Below, piece after piece: positions 8,416 through 23,458 of a stretch of 23,458 nucleotides of DNA. Under the pieces are notes generated by a model. That model was not told where the DNA came from, did not search any database, and was given only the letters and a program-made list of their open reading frames with translations. The DNA is taken from the IMG/VR virus record IMGVR_UViG_3300048672_000059, positions 1 to 23,458 of that record; one strand, given 5' to 3'. The translations under genes were made by a program, and so were the position numbers. This DNA comes from a virus. Within the stretch, counting starts at the first letter, position 1, and each line of letters begins with the position of its first letter.

Positions 8416-8628
8416 ATGCTATATTGGATTCAGGTTGCCTTGGTGTCTACCTTTCTACTCGGTTCCACACTCTTTCTATTTGGTTCTATTGTCCTTATTC
8501 ACCATAAACTCCCTGAATTCAAGCAGCGTCGACGTGATAAGCGTATTATGAAGTTGGCGGAGGAATATCGGAATGGACTTTCGCAGTATTACACAAAAGT
8601 TCCAGCATCTCGTCATAGAAAACTCTAA
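8416..8628 (+). CDS. Small membrane protein with basic tail
   Basis: A 70-residue protein with TTAGGAGA 7 nt before ATG. Residues about 5-30 are a long hydrophobic helix, followed by a very basic cytoplasmic segment (F-K-Q-R-R-R-D-K-R) and a short tail ending in R-H-R-K-L. No family recognised. Its 3' end overlaps the DUF6353 gene by 56 nt, which suggests coupled translation. No clear promoter lies between the terminator and this gene. TATTAT in the terminator's right arm (8386-8391) could serve as a -10 box, but that is a guess. Confidence 0.75.
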   Translation: MLYWIQVALVSTFLLGSTLFLFGSIVLIHHKLPEFKQRRRDKRIMKLAEEYRNGLSQYYTKVPASRHRKL

Positions 8629-9313
8629 TACTACACTGACTGCTATTGGTGTAGCTGGAGTAGTGGTCACAAGTTTCCTGACTGCGAAAGGAACTTTCAA
8701 AGCTGCGGCTAAATTGCAGGAAGAAAACCTCGACGAACTAACTACTAAGGAAGTGGTCGAACTTGTTTGGACGGATTATGTACCAGCCGTTTCCGCAGGT
8801 CTTGTCACTTGTGCTGCTATCATATTTGCTGATCGGATTGGTAGCAGAAGGGCTGCAGCACTTGCAGCAGCGTACACGATAACCGATCGTGCATTTGTCG
8901 ATTACCGTGAGAAGATCATAGCTAAGATAGGTCCGAAGCAAGAAGAAGTAATTCGCTCTGAAATTGCACGAGATCGGATTGAGAGATCTAAAACAGAAGT
9001 TATCATCTCTTCCGGAGGAGATGTTCTCTGTTACGATTCTTTCACAGGTCGAACTTTCATGAGCGATATGGAGACCCTACGTAAGGCTGAGAACCGAATT
9101 AATCACGATCTTCTCACCGACATGTACGCCTCTTTGTCTGATTTTTATGATTTAGTAGGACTACCCCATACGTCATATTCTGACGAAGTGGGATGGAATG
9201 CTGATAGACTCCTCGAACTAAGATTCTCCGCAGTACTCTGCGACGGGGATCGACCTTGTATTAATATCGAATTCAACGTAACCCCTGTTAAACATTTCAA
9301 TCATCTCGGTTAA
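8573..9313 (+). CDS. DUF6353 family membrane protein, paralogue 1
   Basis: A 246-residue protein with GGAGGA at 8559-8564 before ATG. Two membrane helices are visible (about residues 20-38 and 70-90), followed by A-L-A-A-A-Y-T-I-T-D-R-A-F-V-D-Y-R-E-K and a soluble domain. Near the C-terminus it has M-Y-A-S-L-S-D-F-Y-D-L-V-G-L and V-G-W-N. These landmarks fit the DUF6353 family of phage membrane proteins. The 12194-13081 gene carries the same landmarks in the same order, so the two are divergent paralogues. The role of the family is unknown. It overlaps the preceding small membrane gene and is followed closely by another. Confidence 0.78.
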   Translation: MDFRSITQKFQHLVIENSNTTLTAIGVAGVVVTSFLTAKGTFKAAAKLQEENLDELTTKEVVELVWTDYVPAVSAGLVTCAAIIFADRIGSRRAAALAAAYTITDRAFVDYREKIIAKIGPKQEEVIRSEIARDRIERSKTEVIISSGGDVLCYDSFTGRTFMSDMETLRKAENRINHDLLTDMYASLSDFYDLVGLPHTSYSDEVGWNADRLLELRFSAVLCDGDRPCINIEFNVTPVKHFNHLG

Positions 9314-9339
9314 ATAACCAGAAAAGGAATCGTATTATT

Positions 9340-9552
9340 ATGGCTACCAAGACCTCTGCCGTTGAGACTGTTGTTGAAGCTACTGTCGACGCTACCGAAG
9401 AGCTCGTTGCGACTACCGGACCTGTCAACCTGAAGGTGGCTGCTGGAATCGCCGCGGGTGTTCTGCTGTTGGGTGCGACCTCGTTCGCTATCTACAAGAT
9501 CCGTAAGAACAAGCGCGCTGCTGCAGTTGCGGAGGAAACTGTTGAAGCTTAA
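9340..9552 (+). CDS. Small single-helix membrane protein
   Basis: A 70-residue protein with AAAGGAA before ATG. The N-terminal third is rich in Thr, Val, Ala and Glu and is hydrophilic. Residues about 32-51 are a Gly/Ala/Leu-rich transmembrane helix. Then Y-K-I-R-K-N-K-R provides a basic anchor, and the tail is acidic. No family recognised. Its codon usage is richer in G and C than its neighbours. Its last 11 nt overlap the start of the following TTG-initiated gene, and its GGAGG near the end serves that gene. Confidence 0.75.
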   Translation: MATKTSAVETVVEATVDATEELVATTGPVNLKVAAGIAAGVLLLGATSFAIYKIRKNKRAAAVAEETVEA

Positions 9553-9736
9553 GTGTATAGATCACGACAGACGAGTTATTAGTGGAGCAGGACATTTCAT
9601 TCATCGCACCGGAGACGGTACTGTTTGTAATTCCTGCTTCGCTTCAATCGGAGATTCGGTTTACACATTTGTCCGTGACAAGACCGGTTATGCTCTCGGT
9701 CTGATCAAGCGAGGCGGATTTTACGTTGTTGAGTAA
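9542..9736 (+). CDS. Zinc-ribbon-like small protein with TTG start
   Basis: A 64-residue protein. There is no plausible ATG or GTG, but TTG at 9542 lies 6 nt after a perfect GGAGG (9531-9535), inside the end of the previous gene. C5-x2-H8 and C29-x2-C32 form a likely zinc-binding set, with extra histidines at 18 and 21. The rest is a small beta-rich domain (S-V-Y-T-F-V-R-D-K, G-x-Y-A-L-G). It overlaps the next gene by 11 nt. Function unknown; nucleic-acid or protein binding would fit the fold type. Confidence 0.62.
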   Translation: MKLKCIDHDRRVISGAGHFIHRTGDGTVCNSCFASIGDSVYTFVRDKTGYALGLIKRGGFYVVE

Positions 9737-10268
9737 AGAAATCACATACGAGGATCTCGAGGGTAACCCAGTTACTGAGACCTTCTATTTTCATCTTAGC
9801 AAGGCTGAGATTGCCGAACTGGAACTTGAACACGACGGTGGTCTTCATGACTATCTTCAGGCGATTGTGAATGCTTCGAACACTAAGGCTATCCTTGTCG
9901 TCTTTAAGGAGATCATTTCTCGCTGCGTGGGACGTCGGAGTGCTGACGGAAAACGTTTTCTTAAGGATGAAATTCACACGCAAGAGTTTATGAGTTCTGA
10001 AGCATACTCGGAACTCTTTGTCGAATTCCTGAGAAATCCTGAACTCTTCGTCGCATTCATCAACGGTATCATTCCTAAGGGACTTCGGGAAAAGATTTCT
10101 GAAACTCCGACGCCTATCGTCGAGGTTGAGACTTCCCCAAAACCCCTTAACGCTATTCCTTCTTGGATGGCTGAAGGCCGTGAACCGACTAGGCAGGAAC
10201 TTGAGGACACACCTCAGGAAATGCTTATGGCGCATCTGCGTGGAATGAACGCGGTTTCTAACAAGTAA
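9726..10268 (+). CDS. Tail assembly chaperone-like protein
   Basis: A 180-residue soluble protein, start TTG at 9726 (or 9729) overlapping the upstream stop; GAGG lies at 9711-9714. The pattern Y-F-H-L-S-K-A-E-I-A-E-L-E, then F-K-E-I-I-S-R-C-V-G-x-R-S-x-D-G-K-R-F, then F-M-S-S-E-A-Y-S-E-L-F and F-I-N-G-I-I-P is familiar from Gram-positive siphovirus tail assembly chaperones. The C-terminal W-M-A-E-G-R-E-P-T-R-Q-E-L segment also recurs in that group. Such genes normally precede the tape measure gene and use a frameshift. Here the gene is about 6 kb downstream of it, and no convincing slippery site or long second frame follows. The call is from recalled patterns. Confidence 0.6.
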   Translation: MLSKEITYEDLEGNPVTETFYFHLSKAEIAELELEHDGGLHDYLQAIVNASNTKAILVVFKEIISRCVGRRSADGKRFLKDEIHTQEFMSSEAYSELFVEFLRNPELFVAFINGIIPKGLREKISETPTPIVEVETSPKPLNAIPSWMAEGREPTRQELEDTPQEMLMAHLRGMNAVSNK

Positions 10269-10278
10269 ACTTTATTCC

Positions 10279-10399
10279 GATATTGAGGGGATTGCGAGTT
10301 CGAGAGATAGGCGAGGGGTCTCCTGTCTCTTGGACTTTTCCGGACGCTAATCTTAAACGACAGCCGCAGGGTCCCGAGCCAACATGCGCCCTCAATATC
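10279..10399 (+). ncRNA. Candidate structured RNA closed by an 11-bp helix
   Basis: Between two genes, GATATTGAGGG (10279-10289) pairs perfectly with CCCTCAATATC (10389-10399). Inside, AGAGATAGG (10303-10311) pairs with CCTGTCTCT (10322-10330) with one G-U pair and a 10-nt loop. A weaker GGAC (10342-10345)/GTCC (10371-10374) pairing is also possible, so the shape could be a branched RNA of about 120 nt. It ends 24 nt before the next ATG. No tRNA features, promoter or T tract were found. It may be a leader of the 10423 gene, a processed RNA or a separate RNA. Confidence 0.5.
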
Positions 10400-10422
10400 A
10401 TATATACCTAAGGAGTTTTATA

Positions 10423-10611
10423 ATGGGTAGATCAGACCTACTAATTAAAAAGAGTAATAGTAGTCAAGTCACTAGTGGTAGTCCATTTGTGATTATTACT
10501 TATATTAAAATGCATATCAACAAATCGAATTACTCAAGGTACGAAGTTATTTCTGGTAACGACACGGTCAGTATCAGCGACTATATAAAGAAGCATAAGA
10601 GTCTCTGGTAA
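10423..10611 (+). CDS. Small protein, tandem family member 1
   Basis: A 62-residue protein with AAGGAG before ATG at 10423; an in-frame ATG at 10384 lies inside the structured region and lacks an SD. It shares a skeleton with the next two genes: a Gly near residue 19, a helix ending in Y-I-K, an (Y/F)-x-V-x-x-G turn, then S-I-x-D-Y-I near the end. No known family recognised. It is Ser/Asn/Lys-rich and predicted soluble. The TATAAT overlapping its start codon is not used as promoter evidence. Confidence 0.7.
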   Translation: MGRSDLLIKKSNSSQVTSGSPFVIITYIKMHINKSNYSRYEVISGNDTVSISDYIKKHKSLW

Positions 10612-10651
10612 GTAGTGTTATCTTATATTCCAATGATGAAAGAAGTAGGAA

Positions 10652-10837
10652 ATGTATCTGGATGCTGTTCTTAATGGAGAAAACTACTCGGTAATTTTTA
10701 ATGGTCGTCGCGAAGCCACGATAGCCTTTATCAAGGCGCGTATGGATGACGAAGAAATCATGAAGGCTCTTGTTTGTATTGGCGAGAACATGCGGCTCTT
10801 CACTATCGAAGAATATCTGAATATTTACGCGAGGTAA
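10652..10837 (+). CDS. Small protein, tandem family member 2
   Basis: A 61-residue acidic protein with GTAGGAA before ATG. It has the same order of landmarks as its neighbours: N-G-R-R-E-A, a helix with A-F-I-K-A-R, a V-C-I-G turn, then T-I-E-E-Y-L-x-I-Y. Identity with the other two is low, so paralogy rests on spacing and pattern. Its stop is 2 nt before the next start, and GAGG of its own last codons provides the SD for that gene. Function unknown. Confidence 0.7.
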   Translation: MYLDAVLNGENYSVIFNGRREATIAFIKARMDDEEIMKALVCIGENMRLFTIEEYLNIYAR

Positions 10838-10839
10838 AA

Positions 10840-11013
10840 ATGAAAGATAGAGTTCTTGATTCTAATCGTAAACGTCTCTACACTGGTGACCGATCAGATG
10901 TAAAGAAATGGTTGAAAGAGAACCGAGATCGACCGGATTTCGACAAATTTGATGTTCTTCTTGGCGACAAGTTGATCACAGTTCGGGTCGCAGTATATTT
11001 GAGGAAATACTAA
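10840..11013 (+). CDS. Small protein, tandem family member 3
   Basis: A 57-residue protein starting at ATG 10840, directly behind the preceding gene. Landmarks are T-G-D-R-S-D-V-K-K-W-L-K, then F-D-V-L-L-G-D-K, then V-R-V-A-V-Y-L-R-K-Y. These align in order with the two upstream genes, so the three look like tandem duplicates that have diverged. It is highly charged, with basic and acidic residues mixed. Function unknown. Promoter copy 4 begins immediately after its stop. Confidence 0.7.
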   Translation: MKDRVLDSNRKRLYTGDRSDVKKWLKENRDRPDFDKFDVLLGDKLITVRVAVYLRKY

Positions 11014-12051: not shown

Positions 12052-12231
12052 ATGAACAATAGAGAACTTCTCAAAAATTATTATCGAGGCGTTAAATGGG
12101 CTCGTCAAGTAGACCGTATGTCTGACGCGCAAGTATACGCCGTTCTATGTAGACTGAGAAGTGCTACTAAACCCAATCGGGAGTTGAAAACAAATGAGCC
12201 TTGTAAATCTCAAGAATGCAGTAACAAGTAA
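12052..12231 (+). CDS. Short basic protein overlapping the DUF6353 gene
   Basis: A 59-residue protein starting 4 nt after the previous stop and running 38 nt into the following gene in another frame. N-N-R-E-L-L-K-N-Y-Y-R-G-V-K-W-A-R-Q-V, then R-M-S-D-A-Q-V-Y-A-V at 22-31 is a compact two-helix pattern I associate with small phage proteins next to DUF6353 genes. It has two Cys near the end. The SD is poor (AAAG), so translation may depend on coupling. Function unknown. Confidence 0.62.
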   Translation: MNNRELLKNYYRGVKWARQVDRMSDAQVYAVLCRLRSATKPNRELKTNEPCKSQECSNK

Positions 12232-13081
12232 GTTCGCACTGAATCTACTTAAGATCAGGAAGGCCAGCCCGACACTAATGTTTGTTGGTGGCGTAGTAGG
12301 TATTGGTGCTACCGTGTATCTGGCTTGCCGCGCTACGCTTCGGGTTGAAGAAACTATCGAGGAAGCCCGGACCGAGATCGAATTCGTCAAGACCACAGAT
12401 TACGACGAAGATCTCGATCGCACCAAGGATCTCTACTATGTCTATGGTAAGTCGTTCGCTTCCTTCGCCAAGTTGTTCGGTCCGCCAGTAATTCTTGGCG
12501 TTACTTCTATCGCGATGTTGACCGGTTCGCATGTCATTCTGCACCGTCGTAATCTGGCTGTTACCGCGGCTTACGCGGCTCTTGACAAGGGTTTCAAGCA
12601 GTACCGTTCTCGGGTTTCTGAGAAGTATGGTGCTGTCGAGGACCAGACTCTTCGCCATGGTCTCGTGGATAAGACTATTGTTGAGGAAACTGAAACTGGA
12701 CCAGTAACCCGAACCGTTAAGGTTCCCGGTAAGAATGCTCCGTCGATCTATGCTAAGATCTTCGACGAGAATAACCGAAACTGGAATCGTCACCCGTCAT
12801 ACAACCAAATCTTCATTCAGTGCCAACAGAATTATGCTAACGACCTTCTTCGTGCCCGTGGTCATGTTACTCTGAATGAGGTGTATGATCTCCTTGGTAT
12901 GGATCGTACCAAGGAAGGATTCGTTGTTGGGTGGGTAAATAACTCAGTCGAGGGAGATGGTTATATCGACTTTGGCGTGTTCTCTGGCGATACTTTCATG
13001 GGCCAGCAATTTGCTAATGGCGACGAGAAGTCGGTGTGGCTGGACTTCAACGTCGACGGCGTTATCTACGACAAGATCTGA
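12194..13081 (+). CDS. DUF6353 family membrane protein, paralogue 2
   Basis: A 295-residue protein with CGGGAG before ATG. Two membrane helices lie at about residues 28-46 and 95-115. Then comes L-A-V-T-A-A-Y-A-A-L-D-K-G-F-K-Q-Y-R, matching the A-A-Y-x-x-x-D-x-x-F-x-x-Y-R pattern of the 8573 gene. Later it has V-T-L-N-E-V-Y-D-L-L-G-M and V-V-G-W-V, and ends in W-L-D-F-N-V-D-G. It is longer than paralogue 1 by an insertion near residues 155-195. DUF6353 function is unknown; the two copies probably act at the cytoplasmic membrane. The helices precede a large cytoplasmic or extracellular domain; orientation cannot be settled by eye. Confidence 0.8.
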   Translation: MSLVNLKNAVTSKFALNLLKIRKASPTLMFVGGVVGIGATVYLACRATLRVEETIEEARTEIEFVKTTDYDEDLDRTKDLYYVYGKSFASFAKLFGPPVILGVTSIAMLTGSHVILHRRNLAVTAAYAALDKGFKQYRSRVSEKYGAVEDQTLRHGLVDKTIVEETETGPVTRTVKVPGKNAPSIYAKIFDENNRNWNRHPSYNQIFIQCQQNYANDLLRARGHVTLNEVYDLLGMDRTKEGFVVGWVNNSVEGDGYIDFGVFSGDTFMGQQFANGDEKSVWLDFNVDGVIYDKI

Positions 13082-13090
13082 GGAATCAAG

Positions 13091-13753
13091 ATGCCGAAAT
13101 TCACAACTGTTCTAGGAGTTTCGGCTCTGGTTCTTACTAGTTTCGTTGCAGGATTTATCCTTTCGAAGCGGTATGAGGACGACTTCGAATCCTTCGACGA
13201 GCCGAGTGAGCCAGAGACGGACGTACGGAATATCACTGTTACTCCGGAAGATATCAATCCGCCTTATGTTTCGAAGTATTACAGTTCTCCAGAGGAAATG
13301 GCCGCTAAGGTTATCCCTGGGTACAATGGAGCTGTAAAACCTCGCGAGGACAAGCAGTACAAGAAGGTTGTTTATCAATACCAACAGCCGGTAACACCCC
13401 CGGAACACCGAGACTTGTATAAAGAACTTCTCAGCGAAAGATCTCTCGACCCGGATTTCTCACAAGACGCTGTACATGACCCCCGTGTAATTAGCGTCAA
13501 AGAGTATTTCGACGACAAATCGAGTTACGAGAAAGTAACCGTGACTTGGTATGAAGGGGATTCTGTTCTGACGGATCAGGACGACGCCGTCGTAGAGGAA
13601 TTCGTTGTTGCTATCGGAGAGGGAAACCTCTTGTTCGGTCACGACAGCGAAGACCCTAATGTTGTATATGTCAGGAACGATCGTCTATCGACTGACTATG
13701 AGGTTGTTCGCAGCGAGGGTAGTTATCGAGTCGATGTTCTAGGACTTGATTAA
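13091..13753 (+). CDS. Membrane-anchored conserved phage protein
   Basis: A 220-residue protein with TGAGGAAT before ATG. Residues about 5-25 are one N-terminal transmembrane helix, then a disordered acidic linker rich in Glu, Pro and Asp to about residue 120. The C-terminal domain has V-I-S-V-K-E-Y-F, V-T-W-Y-E-G-D, L-F-G-H-D-S-E-D-P-N-V-V-Y-V-R-N-D-R-L and D-Y-E-V. That last block recurs in conserved phage proteins located beside DUF6353 genes. No enzyme motif is visible. It probably works with its neighbours at the membrane, an inference from gene order. Confidence 0.75.
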   Translation: MPKFTTVLGVSALVLTSFVAGFILSKRYEDDFESFDEPSEPETDVRNITVTPEDINPPYVSKYYSSPEEMAAKVIPGYNGAVKPREDKQYKKVVYQYQQPVTPPEHRDLYKELLSERSLDPDFSQDAVHDPRVISVKEYFDDKSSYEKVTVTWYEGDSVLTDQDDAVVEEFVVAIGEGNLLFGHDSEDPNVVYVRNDRLSTDYEVVRSEGSYRVDVLGLD

Positions 13754-13755
13754 CT

Positions 13756-14298
13756 ATGCCTCCTAAGCCCCCGCTCGATGAAGAGTACTTCGTTTGGCTT
13801 CTTGATAAAGTGGGCGGCCCAAATGGCAACGTGGATAACAAATATAACCGGTTACTCAGACTACTATTCCAAAAGGAATTCGTCTGGATAATTCCTAATG
13901 ATGATAATCGCGCTGAAGACGGAAAAGATCTCCGCTGTGCATTCATCAATCATAAGGAACTAGATGTTGAAGATATCGATCCATATTGGCTAGAACTCGG
14001 CTGCTCTGTTTTCGAAATGCTTATTGCACTCGCTAAACGTCTCTCGTTCGAAACCGACGGGTTTCCTTCGCAAAGAGATACTAGCGGATGGTTCTGGGGT
14101 TTGATTGAAAACCTAGGTCTTTCGAACCCCAGAATGACTTCTAAAAAGATAGAAGAAAGCTTAAACCGACTTATCTGGAGGACTTACGAACCTAACGGTA
14201 GAGGTGGTCTATTCCCTCTACAAAACCCTAACGGGGACCAAAGGAAAACTGAAATCTGGTACCAGATGTGCGAATATGTGATTGAACTTGGTATATAG
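13756..14298 (+). CDS. Conserved phage protein upstream of replication gene
   Basis: A 180-residue soluble protein starting 2 nt after the previous stop. Landmarks are D-E-E-Y-F-V-W-L, F-V-W-I-I-P-N-D-D-N-R-A-E-D-G-K-D-L-R, L-G-C-S-V-F-E-M-L-I-A-L-A-K-R-L-S-F-E-T-D, W-F-W-G-L-I-E-N-L-G-L and W-R-T-Y-x-x-N-G-R-G-G-L-F-P-L. This combination is highly conserved across unrelated Gram-positive phages, which implies a specific role, but none is known to me. The many invariant Asp, Glu, Arg, His and Trp residues could form an active site. It precedes the replication fusion gene by 14 nt. Confidence 0.78.
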   Translation: MPPKPPLDEEYFVWLLDKVGGPNGNVDNKYNRLLRLLFQKEFVWIIPNDDNRAEDGKDLRCAFINHKELDVEDIDPYWLELGCSVFEMLIALAKRLSFETDGFPSQRDTSGWFWGLIENLGLSNPRMTSKKIEESLNRLIWRTYEPNGRGGLFPLQNPNGDQRKTEIWYQMCEYVIELGI

Positions 14299-14312: not shown

Positions 14313-17300
14313 ATGGATTTCTTTCGTGTCGCGATGAGAGAAATCGAAAAAGGACCTCATAAGGGGTCGTTTGAAGTTTACCCCGATTTCGTAGTTCGGC
14401 GATCAAAAGACCTAATGGTTCGTGGAAAAGCATTCCACGCTATCTGGGATGAAGAACAAGGCCTCTGGTCTACAGATGAATACGACGTCGTTCGTCTTGT
14501 GGATGAAGCTCTAGATAAGTTTGCTGCTGAACAAAAAGCTATCGGGGTTACTTGTAGGGTGAAACATCTGTCTTCGTTTAAGACAAATGGCTGGACGCAG
14601 TTCCGAAATTATGTAGGACGAGTATCAGATAATGGCTGTGAACTGGACGCATCTCTAACGTTTCAGAATTCAGTCATAACTAAGAACGACCATGCTAGTC
14701 GTCGACTCCCGTATAAATTGGAGTCGGGGAGTTATGAAGCTTGGGATGAGCTTGTCAGTACTCTATATATCCCTGAAGAACGCGCAAAGATCGAATGGTG
14801 TATAGGTTCTATTGTTGCCGGAGACTCCAAGAGTATACAGAAGTTTGCTGTGTTTTATGGAAAACCGGGAACTGGTAAGTCTACCATATTTGACATTATC
14901 TTTAAATTGTTTGATGGATACTGTGTTACTTTCGATGCGAAAGCTCTTGTTGGCACCAATAATAGTTTTGCTACGGAAGCATTCCGGGGCAACCCCTTGG
15001 TTGCTATCGAGCACGACAGTGACTTGTCTAAGATCGAAGATAATAGTAAACTAAACTCAATCGTCTCCCACGAAGAGATGACGTTTAATGAGAAGTACAA
15101 ACCCGCGTATACTTCTCGAAGTCGTGCTATGTTGTTCATTGGTACCAATAAACCCGTTAAGATCACGGATGCCAAAGCGGGAATCATTAGACGTCTGCTA
15201 GACATTAATCCTAGTGGAAATATTATTCCTGCTAATCATTACTTTGAACTTATCTCTAGAATTAATTTCGAGTTGGGTGCAATCGCGCAGCATTGCCTTG
15301 ATGTGTATAGGACGATGGGTAAGAATTATTATAATGCGTATCGCCCACTCGAGATGATGTATCGCACTGACGTCTTCTTCAATTTTGTAGAAGCTTATTA
15401 CGATGTCTTTAAATCTCAGAATGGTGCTACACTTCAACAAGCGTATGACTTGTATAGGGAGTACTGCAAGGAATCTGGGATAGATTGGGTTCTTCCGAAA
15501 TACAAATTCCGGGACGAATTCAAGAACTACTTTGATTCATTTGACGAACGTTGCACCGTTGATGGCGAAGCTCGGCGAAACTACTACAGTGGATTTTCTG
15601 CCGAACCTTATCGAAGAAAAGAAAAAGTCGAAGAAGTTGTTCCGCCAGCATTTGAGATAGATCAAACGGTCTCTTTGTTGGATGCATATTTGGCTGATTG
15701 CCCGGCTCAGTATGCTAAGGATGATGGTACGCCAAAACAACGATGGTCTCAGGTTACAACTACTTTGGCTGACCTAGATACGACAAAACTGCACTATGTA
15801 AAAGTACCAGAAAACCATATCGTAATTGACTTCGATTTGAAGGAAGACGATGGAATTACAAAATCTCTTGAGAGAAATATCGAGGCGGCTGGTCTTTGGC
15901 CTACCACTTACGGAGAACGTAGTAAAAGCGGTTCAGGAATCCATCTCCATTACAATTACACCGGAGATGATGCCGGAGAACTCGCTTCGAATTACGCTCC
16001 AGGAATTGAAGTCAAATCATTTCGTGGAGGCGCTAGTCTTCGTCGACGAGTTAACGGAAGCAATAAAGTTCCAGTCGCCGCAATAACTAGTGGTCTCCCG
16101 CTAAAGGAGAGCAAACCAGTGATCGAAGATGCGGTCATTAAATCGGAAAAGGGTCTTCGCGATCTTATAGATCGAAATCTTAGAAAAGAGATACACCCGG
16201 GTACTAAACCAAGTGTCGACTTTATTGCGAAGATCCTAGATGATGCATACGCCTCGGGTCTTGCCTATGACGTCACCGATCTTCGTTCCAAATTGATCGT
16301 GTTTGCAAATAACAGCACCAACCAATCTATGGCTGCGCTCAAAATTGTGCAGCATATGAAGTTCAAATCTGAAGAAACAACGACCAAGGAACCAGAAGTT
16401 GTAGAAGATCGTCTGGTGTTCTTTGACGTTGAGGTATTTCCAAATCTATTTGTGATTTGTTGGAAGTACGAGGGTTCTTCAACGGTAATTCGTATGATCA
16501 ATCCTACGGCCCAACAAGTCGAGGCACTATTCAAATTTAAACTTGTAGGATTCAACAACCGTAGATACGATAACCATATTCTATGGGGAGCATATCTTGG
16601 TTACACTAACCTTATGCTTTACAAACTCTCGAAGCGGATCATCGACAACGATCAAGGGGCATTGTTCGGCAAAGCGTATGATTTGTCTTATACTGATATC
16701 TACGATTTTTCTAGCAAGAAGCAGAGCCTCAAGAAGTTCGAAATAGAACTTGGCATTGCGCATGTGGAACTAAACTTCCCCTGGGATCAACCAGTCCCTG
16801 AGGAGAGTTGGGTTGAAGTAGCCGACTATTGTGCGAATGATGTTACGGCTACAGATGCTGTATTTATGGCTCGTAAGGGCGACTGGGATGCCAGAAAGAT
16901 CCTTGCTGAACTGAGTGGGCTTTCTCCTAACGATACTACTCAGAAGCACACTGCGCAGATCATATTCGGTGACGATCGAAATCCTCAAAGATCATTCATA
17001 TATACCGACTTATCGAAGGAATTTGATGGGTACAATTATTCTCGTGGTACTTCTAACTATCGCGATGAGACCGTTGGTGAAGGGGGTTATGTCTATGCTG
17101 AACCCGGCATCTACTCGGACGTTGCCCTATTGGACGTTGCGAGCATGCATCCTACCTCCATCAAAGAGCTCAACGTATTTGGCGAATATACAGATCGATT
17201 CTGGGAACTCGTCGAAGGCCGGCTGGCTGTTAAGCATAAGAAGTACGAGGAAGCCCGGACGCTACTTGGTGGTAAACTGTCGAAGTTTCTGGACCCTTCT

Positions 17301-18092
17301 AATCCAGACTTGGATGCGGCTGCCGGAGCTTTGGCGTATGCTCTCAAAATTGTCGTCAACATCGTCTACGGACTTACATCGGCTCCCTTCGACAATCCCT
17401 TCAGAGATCCTCGAAATAAAGACAATATCGTCGCCAAACGAGGGTCTCTCTTCATGATCGATCTGAAGCACGCTGTTCAAGAGCGGGGCTTCACGGTTGC
17501 TCACATTAAGACCGACTCCATCAAGATCCCAAACGCAACACCTGAGATCATCCAGTTTGTGATGGATTTCGGAAAGCAGTATGGCTATACATTCGAACAT
17601 GAGGCTACCTACTCTAAGTTCTGTCTCGTGAACGACGCTGTCTACATCGCAAATGATGGTACAGACTGGCATGCTGTAGGAGCACAATTCCAACATCCGT
17701 ACGTATTTAAGACTCTCTTCAATGACGCTGATATAGAGTTCTCGGATCTTTGCGAGGCTCGCAGTGTTAAGGAAGGAGCTATGTATCTGGACTTCGACAA
17801 TATCCCTAAGGCAGATATCAATGAAGAAACCATTGGTCGCTGGAAGTTCGTGGGACGCACTGGCTTGTTCACTCCAGTCAAGCCGGATTGCGGTGGAGGA
17901 ACTCTCTATCGTGTTAAGGGCGACAAGACGTACGCGGTAACTGGAACCAAGGGTTATTTCTGGGCCGAATCATTGAATGTTAAACATGATGGTCTCGACT
18001 CGATTGATATGAATTATTTCGAGACAATGGCAGAAGAAGCCATAGCCACTATCGAAAAGTTTGGTTCATTTAAGGAATTTGTATATGGATAA
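14313..18092 (+). CDS. SF3 helicase - AEP primase - family B-like DNA polymerase fusion
   Basis: A 1259-residue replication protein with AGGAAGGGG before ATG. Residues about 140-400 hold a superfamily 3/D5-like helicase: Walker A GKPGTGKST (183-191), Walker B L-V-A-I-E-H-D (229-235), sensor N279 in G-T-N-K-P, and G-I-I-R-R. Residues about 465-600 hold an AEP primase: D506-F-D508 and S-G-S-G-I-H544. From about 700 comes a family B-like polymerase: exonuclease motifs F-D705-V-E707, N-N-R-R-Y-D and Y839-C-A-N-D843; polymerase motif A D941-V-A-S-M-H-P; motif B K1012-I-V-V-N-I-V-Y-G; motif C K-T-D1068-S. Helicase, primer synthesis and proofreading synthesis are thus in one chain. Motif C has Lys where the first Asp of DTD usually is. 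Domains read from motifs only. Confidence 0.88.
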   Translation: MDFFRVAMREIEKGPHKGSFEVYPDFVVRRSKDLMVRGKAFHAIWDEEQGLWSTDEYDVVRLVDEALDKFAAEQKAIGVTCRVKHLSSFKTNGWTQFRNYVGRVSDNGCELDASLTFQNSVITKNDHASRRLPYKLESGSYEAWDELVSTLYIPEERAKIEWCIGSIVAGDSKSIQKFAVFYGKPGTGKSTIFDIIFKLFDGYCVTFDAKALVGTNNSFATEAFRGNPLVAIEHDSDLSKIEDNSKLNSIVSHEEMTFNEKYKPAYTSRSRAMLFIGTNKPVKITDAKAGIIRRLLDINPSGNIIPANHYFELISRINFELGAIAQHCLDVYRTMGKNYYNAYRPLEMMYRTDVFFNFVEAYYDVFKSQNGATLQQAYDLYREYCKESGIDWVLPKYKFRDEFKNYFDSFDERCTVDGEARRNYYSGFSAEPYRRKEKVEEVVPPAFEIDQTVSLLDAYLADCPAQYAKDDGTPKQRWSQVTTTLADLDTTKLHYVKVPENHIVIDFDLKEDDGITKSLERNIEAAGLWPTTYGERSKSGSGIHLHYNYTGDDAGELASNYAPGIEVKSFRGGASLRRRVNGSNKVPVAAITSGLPLKESKPVIEDAVIKSEKGLRDLIDRNLRKEIHPGTKPSVDFIAKILDDAYASGLAYDVTDLRSKLIVFANNSTNQSMAALKIVQHMKFKSEETTTKEPEVVEDRLVFFDVEVFPNLFVICWKYEGSSTVIRMINPTAQQVEALFKFKLVGFNNRRYDNHILWGAYLGYTNLMLYKLSKRIIDNDQGALFGKAYDLSYTDIYDFSSKKQSLKKFEIELGIAHVELNFPWDQPVPEESWVEVADYCANDVTATDAVFMARKGDWDARKILAELSGLSPNDTTQKHTAQIIFGDDRNPQRSFIYTDLSKEFDGYNYSRGTSNYRDETVGEGGYVYAEPGIYSDVALLDVASMHPTSIKELNVFGEYTDRFWELVEGRLAVKHKKYEEARTLLGGKLSKFLDPSNPDLDAAAGALAYALKIVVNIVYGLTSAPFDNPFRDPRNKDNIVAKRGSLFMIDLKHAVQERGFTVAHIKTDSIKIPNATPEIIQFVMDFGKQYGYTFEHEATYSKFCLVNDAVYIANDGTDWHAVGAQFQHPYVFKTLFNDADIEFSDLCEARSVKEGAMYLDFDNIPKADINEETIGRWKFVGRTGLFTPVKPDCGGGTLYRVKGDKTYAVTGTKGYFWAESLNVKHDGLDSIDMNYFETMAEEAIATIEKFGSFKEFVYG

Positions 18093-20538: not shown

Positions 20539-20778
20539 ATGACTTATATGTATATCGACGACTTTAATTCCGATTACGAAGCAAGAAGTCCTCGCTATCC
20601 TTTGAAGTTTGTATTTTCTGAAGAGTTCATGAAACCATATCGAGAGTTTTTTAATTCTAAAGCGTTGGGTTTGGGGACTAAAGAAAATCCAATGATCTCG
20701 CTTACTGACGAGGAAAGCGCTAATGACCTTCCGATGGAAGATATAAATGACGCGCCTCTTGAAGGATATGGATGCTAA
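20539..20778 (+). CDS. Acidic hypothetical protein
   Basis: A 79-residue protein with GTGAGGAGGT before ATG 20539, an excellent SD. Very acidic in its second half (D-E-E-S-A-N-D-L-P-M-E-D). N-terminal Tyr/Asp-rich. No membrane helix or motif. It overlaps the Acb2-like gene by one base (TAATG), so the two are translated together and could act together. Confidence 0.65.
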   Translation: MTYMYIDDFNSDYEARSPRYPLKFVFSEEFMKPYREFFNSKALGLGTKENPMISLTDEESANDLPMEDINDAPLEGYGC

Positions 20779-21032
20779 TGTTGAGTCCTAATGATATAGC
20801 TCAAAGGTTCGGACAACATATTCCGACTCCTGAGGCTGCAAAACAACATTACGATTTGCGTGAAAGTTTCGTCCTCTTTGCTGGGATTCTGGCTACCACT
20901 CTTCCTGAGGGTCGCGAGAAGGAGGAAGCGCTTCTTCGTCTTGAGGAAGCATCGATGTGGGCACACAAGGCTGTCGCAATGCCCAACCCTCTAGTTCCGA
21001 TGGGGGTGCAGCGTCGTCGTGCGAAAAGCTAA
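20778..21032 (+). CDS. Acb2/Tad1-like cyclic-nucleotide sponge (anti-CBASS/Thoeris candidate)
   Basis: An 84-residue helical protein. R10-F-x-x-H14-x-P16, then R28, and P43-x-x-R46-E-K-x-x-A-L-x-R-L-E56-E57-A58-x-x-W61-A-x-x-A65-V-A match the pattern I associate with the Acb2_Tad1 hairpin domain of phage proteins. Acb2 binds cyclic di- and trinucleotides and blocks CBASS signalling; Tad1 sequesters Thoeris signals. The A-L-x-R-L-E-E-A-x-x-W-A helix is the key block. Its length fits the single-domain form. It follows the acidic 20539 gene with a 1-nt overlap. Family recognition is by pattern, so binding and specificity remain inferred. Confidence 0.72.
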   Translation: MLSPNDIAQRFGQHIPTPEAAKQHYDLRESFVLFAGILATTLPEGREKEEALLRLEEASMWAHKAVAMPNPLVPMGVQRRRAKS

Positions 21033-21842: not shown

Positions 21843-23012
21843 ATGTCGGTAGACCTATATCCCCATCAGAAAAAAGCCGTCAGTGATCTTAAGAACGGGT
21901 CTATATTATGGGGAGGTGTTGGGAGTGGGAAATCCCTTACTGCGGTGGCTTATTACATGGCTAACGAATCTCCTCGGAATATTCTTGTAATTACTACTGC
22001 AAAGAAACGCGATAGCCTTGATTGGGATGGCGAATTCGCAAAATTTGGAGTTGGTAAGTATGAGGGCGCCACTCTAGCGGGCTTGTTAAAAGTTGACTCG
22101 TGGAACAACATCAGTAAGTATGTTGGACTGAAGGACTACTTCATAATCTTTGACGAGCAGCGACTTGTAGGATCCGGCGGCTGGGTTAAGGCCTTTCTTA
22201 AGATGACCAAACACAATCGTTGGATCCTACTATCAGCTACTCCTGGAGACTGTTGGCTTGACTACATACCAGTGTTCGTAGCAAATGGTTTTTACAAGAA
22301 TAGAACCGAGTTCAAGCGAGATCATGTAATTTATGCCCCATATACAAAATTCCCAAAAGTAACAGGGTATAAGAATGAACGTAAGCTAGCATACCTCAGA
22401 TCGAAGCTCCTCGTAGAAATGCCATACATGAGGACTACTATCCGAGAAGTATACAAAGTCCCTGTATCGCATGATAAAGACCTTTTAAACATGGTGGTGA
22501 AGCGTTGGCACCCGTACGAAGAACGCCCCCTAAGAGATGCGGGGGAGATGTTCATGATGATGCGAAGAGTCGTGAATGGCGACACATCTCGTTTGTCAGC
22601 CCTGTTGGAGTTGATGGAGAACCACAAGAAGATAGTGCTCTTCTACAACTTCGACTACGAGCTAGTGCTTTTGAGGAGCCTCGCGAATCTAGAAGGCGTG
22701 GGGTACGCTGAATGGAATGGTCACAAGCACGAGAGTATTCCAAAAACTGATAGATGGATTTATATAGTTCAGTATTCAGCAGGAGCTGAAGGTTGGAACT
22801 GCACGGATACTGACACTGTTGTATTCTATTCTTTGAATTATTCGTACAAACTATGGGAGCAGGCTCAAGGTAGAATCGATAGATTGAACACCCTGTTCCA
22901 AGTGTTGAAGTACTATGTTCTTGTAAGTGACACCTCTATTGACAAGGCTATTTTAGAAGCCCTCGAGTCGAAACGAGACTTTAATGAGCAAGCCTTCAAC
23001 AGTAACAACTAA
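21843..23012 (+). CDS. Superfamily 2 DNA helicase
   Basis: A 389-residue helicase, compact for SF2. Motifs in order: Q-like L-Y-P-H-Q (5-9), Walker A GGVGSGKS (24-31), motif Ia I-T-T-A-K-K, motif II D104-E-Q-R, motif III S131-A-T-P-G-D, motif IV V-L-F-Y-N-F, motif [10 protein letters not shown] and motif [10 protein letters not shown] with the arginine finger. This resembles phage SF2/Snf2-like helicases. With the fusion replicase it probably helps unwind, restart or recombine phage DNA. SD is weak (GACGGG). The end overlaps the 22984 gene by 29 nt. Confidence 0.9.
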
Positions 23013-23213: not shown

Positions 23214-23458
23214 ATGTCTGCTGATAATGTTAATAGCCCGCCTCACTATCAAATGTATTATGGCCTTGAGGTTATTGATCTAACTGAACAGATGAACTTT
23301 AATCGTGGTAATGCTGTTAAGTATATTTGTAGGGCTGGTTTTAAATCTGGTGGTAATGAGAAGGAAGATTTGCGGAAAGCTATTTGGTATTTGCGTAGGG
23401 AAGTCGATAGACTTGAGAGAACTAGGAATCTTATCGAGCCTATGAAGTTTATGGATAC
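23214..23458 (+). CDS. DUF3310 protein, 3' end cut by the window
   Basis: ATG 23214 with AGGAAGC before it; 81 codons visible and open to the end. V-N-S-P-P-H-Y near the start, E-V-I-D-L, then N-x-x-R-G-N-A-V-K-Y-I-C-R-A-G-F-K and E-D-L-R-K-A-I-W-Y-L are the DUF3310 (PF11753) pattern, found in phages and sometimes annotated as nucleotide kinase or nucleotide metabolism protein. By analogy it belongs with replication genes. Codons favour T at third position more strongly than in most genes here. Confidence 0.82.
   Translation, partial: MSADNVNSPPHYQMYYGLEVIDLTEQMNFNRGNAVKYICRAGFKSGGNEKEDLRKAIWYLRREVDRLERTRNLIEPMKFMD

Follow-up and report, generated by a model that had tools for sequence, protein, structure and literature searches.

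The open frame at 14313-18092 on the plus strand of the window (the whole stretch of DNA that was analysed, a 23,458-base IMG/VR virus record and a metagenome-derived contig fragment) encodes one chain in which an SF3 helicase is followed by an AEP primase with a helical accessory domain and by a family B exonuclease-polymerase. The gene almost certainly encodes the phage's own replicase, which belongs to the widespread HelPrimPolB family, is a homologue (probably an orthologue) of GP55 of Lactococcus phage 1706, and would unwind, prime, extend and proofread. This architecture is already known. Kazlauskas et al. 2020 named the HelPrimPolB group, a PolB with an SF3 helicase and a PrimPol fused at the N-terminus, after its domain order and reported a divergent motif C (PMC7544198). 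GP55 was purified and described as a "four-in-one replicase" (Zhang et al. 2025; PMC12205980). The doubt about novelty expressed in the earlier note was justified by these publications, and the window sequence is a new, ordinary member of the family.

Integrity and spread of the fused gene

14313..18092, plus strand: HelPrimPolB-type replicase gene, 1259 aa (full-length match to PHROG 4210, 1922 bits)

The frame starts with ATG at 14313, its stop codon ends at 18092, and its 1259 codons contain no internal stop. The start lies 14 bases past the end of the preceding gene and is preceded by a purine-rich AGGAAGGGG stretch that resembles a ribosome-binding site. PHROG 4210 ("DNA polymerase", 1304 positions) covers residues 1-1257 and hence the chain from end to end. 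Because of this full-chain match, and because the motif residues show little or no variation in a set of 260 homologues drawn from phages, viral contigs and bacterial contigs, the motif set is more than chance. A second contig carries a replicase of the same length with 98% identity. Between the two, dS is 0.13, dN is 0.008 and dN/dS is about 0.06, and dN is low in each domain, the AEP included. The gene is real, looks intact and is under purifying selection.

A contig or assembly artefact that fused separate genes into a single frame, which the earlier note had named as a possible objection, is conceivable for a metagenome-derived fragment, but its probability is practically zero. Of 240 loci on viral and bacterial contigs (not all independent, as certain contigs were fetched by both scans), 237 have the three domains in one frame and in the same order, and the other three are cut by a contig end. 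Homologues covering at least 80% of the chain occur in 252 sequenced records of the phage collection, mostly from actinophages, plus Lactococcus phages and human-saliva contigs, with a best identity of 59%. These independent genomes already refute the artefact, and with the unbroken order and the 98% identical contig of the same length we rejected it. Split or reordered relatives were absent among the 240 loci, as retrieved by scans that were keyed to family-specific motifs and blind to unfused remote relatives. The AEP domain alone matches 253 phage records compared with 252 for the near-full-length chain; hence, at that sensitivity, practically every copy of the AEP in the phage collection is part of the fusion.

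To address the age of the fusion, for which the earlier note had suggested a phylogeny of each domain, a tree was built for each domain from 90 homologues. The patristic distances of any two domains show a correlation of 0.69-0.73, against at most 0.15 after shuffling, which is what one old fusion would give. The same trees hold 2-5 strongly supported conflicting splits per domain pair, so that occasional exchange of domains is possible. Together with the constant domain order and the low dN, this fits an old fusion that selection has kept, possibly with occasional exchange.

Domains and active-site residues

The following parts were assigned within the chain.

14490..15605, plus strand: SF3 (D5/NrS-1/P4-like) helicase with N-terminal helical region, residues 60-431 (Pfam DUF5906, E 2e-14; TIGR01613 primase_Cterm)
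14859..14885, plus strand: Walker A GKPGTGKST, residues 183-191, G183 to K189 (K189 equals GP55 K189)
15645..16112, plus strand: AEP (PriS/PrimPol-like) primase domain, residues 445-600 (AlphaFold2 pLDDT 91; match to NrS-1 6a9w)
15828..15836, plus strand: AEP motif I, D506-F-D508 (D508 equals GP55 D509)
15921..15944, plus strand: AEP motif II, S537-KSGSGI-H544 (S537 and H544 invariant in the 260 homologues)
16008..16016, plus strand: AEP motif III, E566-V-K568, with the third acidic residue (no variation at E566 or K568 in the 260 homologues)
16146..16358, plus strand: four-helix accessory domain (aHD of GP55), residues about 612-682 (four helices in the model; aligned Y652 and F664)
16410..18089, plus strand: family B 3'-5' exonuclease-DNA polymerase, residues 700-1259 (profile and model matches)
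16425..16433, plus strand: Exo I, D705-V-E707 (equal to GP55 D712 and E714)
17133..17153, plus strand: polymerase motif A, D941-x2-S-M-H-P947 (D941 equals GP55 D949)
17346..17372, plus strand: polymerase motif B, K1012-x3-N-x2-Y-G1020 (motif reading, 260 homologues)
17508..17519, plus strand: polymerase motif C variant, K1066-T-D-S1069 (K in 254 of 255 homologues that cover the position)

Profiles, predicted folds and conserved motifs agree with the earlier reading of a helicase, an AEP primase and a proofreading PolB in one chain, and predicted structures confirm all three folds. The motif positions given in that reading were right; a correction is that motif C reads K-T-D, and the accessory domain at about 612-682 had been omitted.

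The helicase model superposes on the SaPI5 primase-helicase, poxvirus D5/E5, ASFV PrimPol and the NrS-1 C-terminal region (CTR) with Z of about 17-22. The SF3 hallmarks are kept in the 260 homologues, namely K189 of Walker A, D235 of Walker B, N279 of sensor 1 and the arginine finger R293/R294. At K189 and at N279, at most one of the sequences covering the position differs.

The primase domain is seen weakly by sequence profile (Pfam Prim-Pol, E 0.044, below the cut-off), which could speak for a degenerate domain that is structural only, with primers coming from host DnaG or another source. We regard this as very unlikely. The predicted fold is that of an AEP, with the NrS-1 primase-polymerase 6a9w as best match (Z 9.8, rmsd 3.5, 141 residues), followed by pRN1 ORF904 (Z 6.5), S-2L and CRISPR-associated PrimPols; every one of the first 14 matches is an AEP. 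The middle segment is thus an AEP, as had been proposed from its motifs. The DxD and sxH motifs and the third acidic residue are all present, and D506, D508, S537, H544, E566, K568, R577 and R578 are invariant in the 260 homologues. The domain is under purifying selection, and in GP55 the D509A substitution abolished priming (PMC12205980). A pseudo-primase lacking the third catalytic residue was likewise ruled out, because E566 is present and invariant together with D506, D508 and H544 in an AEP fold.

The accessory domain sits between the AEP and the exonuclease. Its residues Y652 and F664 align with Y655 and F667 of GP55, in which the accessory helical domain is essential (PMC12205980). Comparison with PDB structures gave no convincing match, which says nothing on the novelty of the domain.

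The PolB part matches the profiles of E. coli Pol II (1.4e-8) and Pol alpha, and its model matches KOD and Pol alpha with Z of 14-16.5. Exo I is followed by Exo II (..Y752-D753) and Exo III (Y839-x3-D843), so that all three exonuclease motifs of family B are present along with polymerase motifs A, B and C, the first Asp of motif C being Lys. D705, E707, D753, Y839 and D843 are invariant in the 260 homologues; at each of D941, Y1019 and D1068, no more than one covering sequence differs. Motif C reads K-T-D-S and not the usual D-T-D-S across nearly all family members. We rejected the idea that K-T-D marks a dead polymerase, since GP55 has the same Lys and is active. Enterococcus phage phiSHEF2 has a stand-alone family B polymerase (8605-10896), a remote relative of the PolB part, in which N-T-D stands at the expected motif C; hence, the first Asp of this motif may vary outside the fusion family too.

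Comparison with known systems and proposed function

GP55 acts as a polymerase, a 3'-5' exonuclease, a helicase that depends on UTP/dTTP and an RNA primase, replicates M13 ssDNA de novo and is mainly a dimer in solution by SEC-MALS (PMC12205980). Over 1223 aligned residues, the window protein and GP55 (1317 aa) share 39% identity, and they have the same four-part order, a similar length and the same Lys in motif C. All seven mapped GP55 mutant positions (K189, D509, D712, E714, D949, Y655 and F667) are kept. The domain order in one chain, the K-T-D-S motif C and the aHD with Y652/F664 place the window protein in the HelPrimPolB/GP55 group, which shares the fusion and the divergent motif C; no feature was found that sets it apart.

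The N-terminal SF3 helicase would open the duplex, the AEP with the helical accessory domain would prime the exposed strand with a short piece of RNA, and the C-terminal PolB would extend this primer while its exonuclease proofreads. The replicase and the neighbouring ssDNA-binding protein would make up most of the phage replication machinery. The sequences of GP55 and the window protein have diverged; beyond sequence and predicted fold, we infer all of the function of the latter from GP55. By this analogy, the primers are probably RNA, the helicase may use UTP or dTTP, the protein may be dimeric, and primase and polymerase probably cooperate in trans. As identity to GP55 is only 39%, the nucleotide preference, the priming site and the oligomeric state may differ.

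Direct hand-off of a primer to the polymerase, which the earlier note had raised, is weakened by the data on GP55. Mutants dead in priming and mutants without the polymerase complement each other in trans, and T4 and phi29 polymerases also extend GP55 primers (PMC12205980). Hence, hand-off is not obligatory in GP55. We see a small chance that the actinophage-like branch, at 39% identity to GP55 as the one enzyme studied, could run the same architecture differently, with a hexameric ring on DNA, another energy nucleotide or an obligatory in-cis hand-off.

Some AEP PrimPols serve in damage tolerance, and the protein might accordingly be a PrimPol for repair or damage tolerance and not the main replicase. 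This is highly improbable, as no second polymerase or primase is annotated among the 55 genes of RosaAsantewaa, a complete relative of 42.7 kb, and the replication proteins listed for phage 1706 are GP55 and an ssDNA-binding protein only (PMC12205980).

Other relatives differ in layout or in annotation. The NrS-1 phage primase-polymerase and pRN1 ORF904 share the AEP fold, and NrS-1 also shares the SF3 helicase part (CTR, Z about 17.7), but the NrS-1 chain begins with the AEP and ends with the helicase. Both lack PolB and proofreading, and the accessory helical bundle is a different one (PMC12205980). The actinophage "DNA primase/polymerase" proteins Gravy gp61 (Gordonia phage) and RosaAsantewaa gp39 are full-length homologues with about 59% identity that are annotated only as primase/polymerase, the helicase part being unnamed. 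For Rhodococcus phage ReqiPoco6, the GenBank note already names two domains, a primase-type one at the N-terminus and a PolB at the C-terminus. With unwinding, priming, extension and proofreading in one polypeptide, such a protein offers a compact model of helicase, primase and polymerase coupling; this point was already made for GP55 in 2025, and the window sequence adds a well conserved member from another branch.

Neighbouring genes

Two genes downstream of the replicase have homologues in phage 1706.

18669..19181, plus strand: ssDNA-binding/annealing protein, homologue of phage 1706 gp66 (PF24083, E 3.7e-59; 36% identical to gp66)
21843..23012, plus strand: separate SF2-type helicase, homologue of phage 1706 gp67 (40% identical to gp67)

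Near GP55, too, the homologues of both are found. Phage 1706 gp75 (22083-25172, annotated as RNA-dependent RNA polymerase) has a weak similarity to Pfam RdRP and is 39% identical to RosaAsantewaa gp54 (39649-42279, annotated as HTH protein), as if an RNA polymerase travels with the replicase; the window ends before the expected position of this gene. A DUF3310 gene (PF11753) at 23214-23458 on the plus strand is truncated where the contig ends. Three plus-strand genes (12194-14298) of PHROGs 2152, 4695 and 4678, which have no known function, lie directly upstream of the replicase. Their counterparts stand in the same order directly upstream of the RosaAsantewaa replicase. An 86-aa ORF at 20772-21032 on the plus strand matches Pfam Acb2_Tad1_hairpin (PF24729, E 2e-11) and is a candidate cyclic-nucleotide sponge that may act against CBASS or Thoeris defence.
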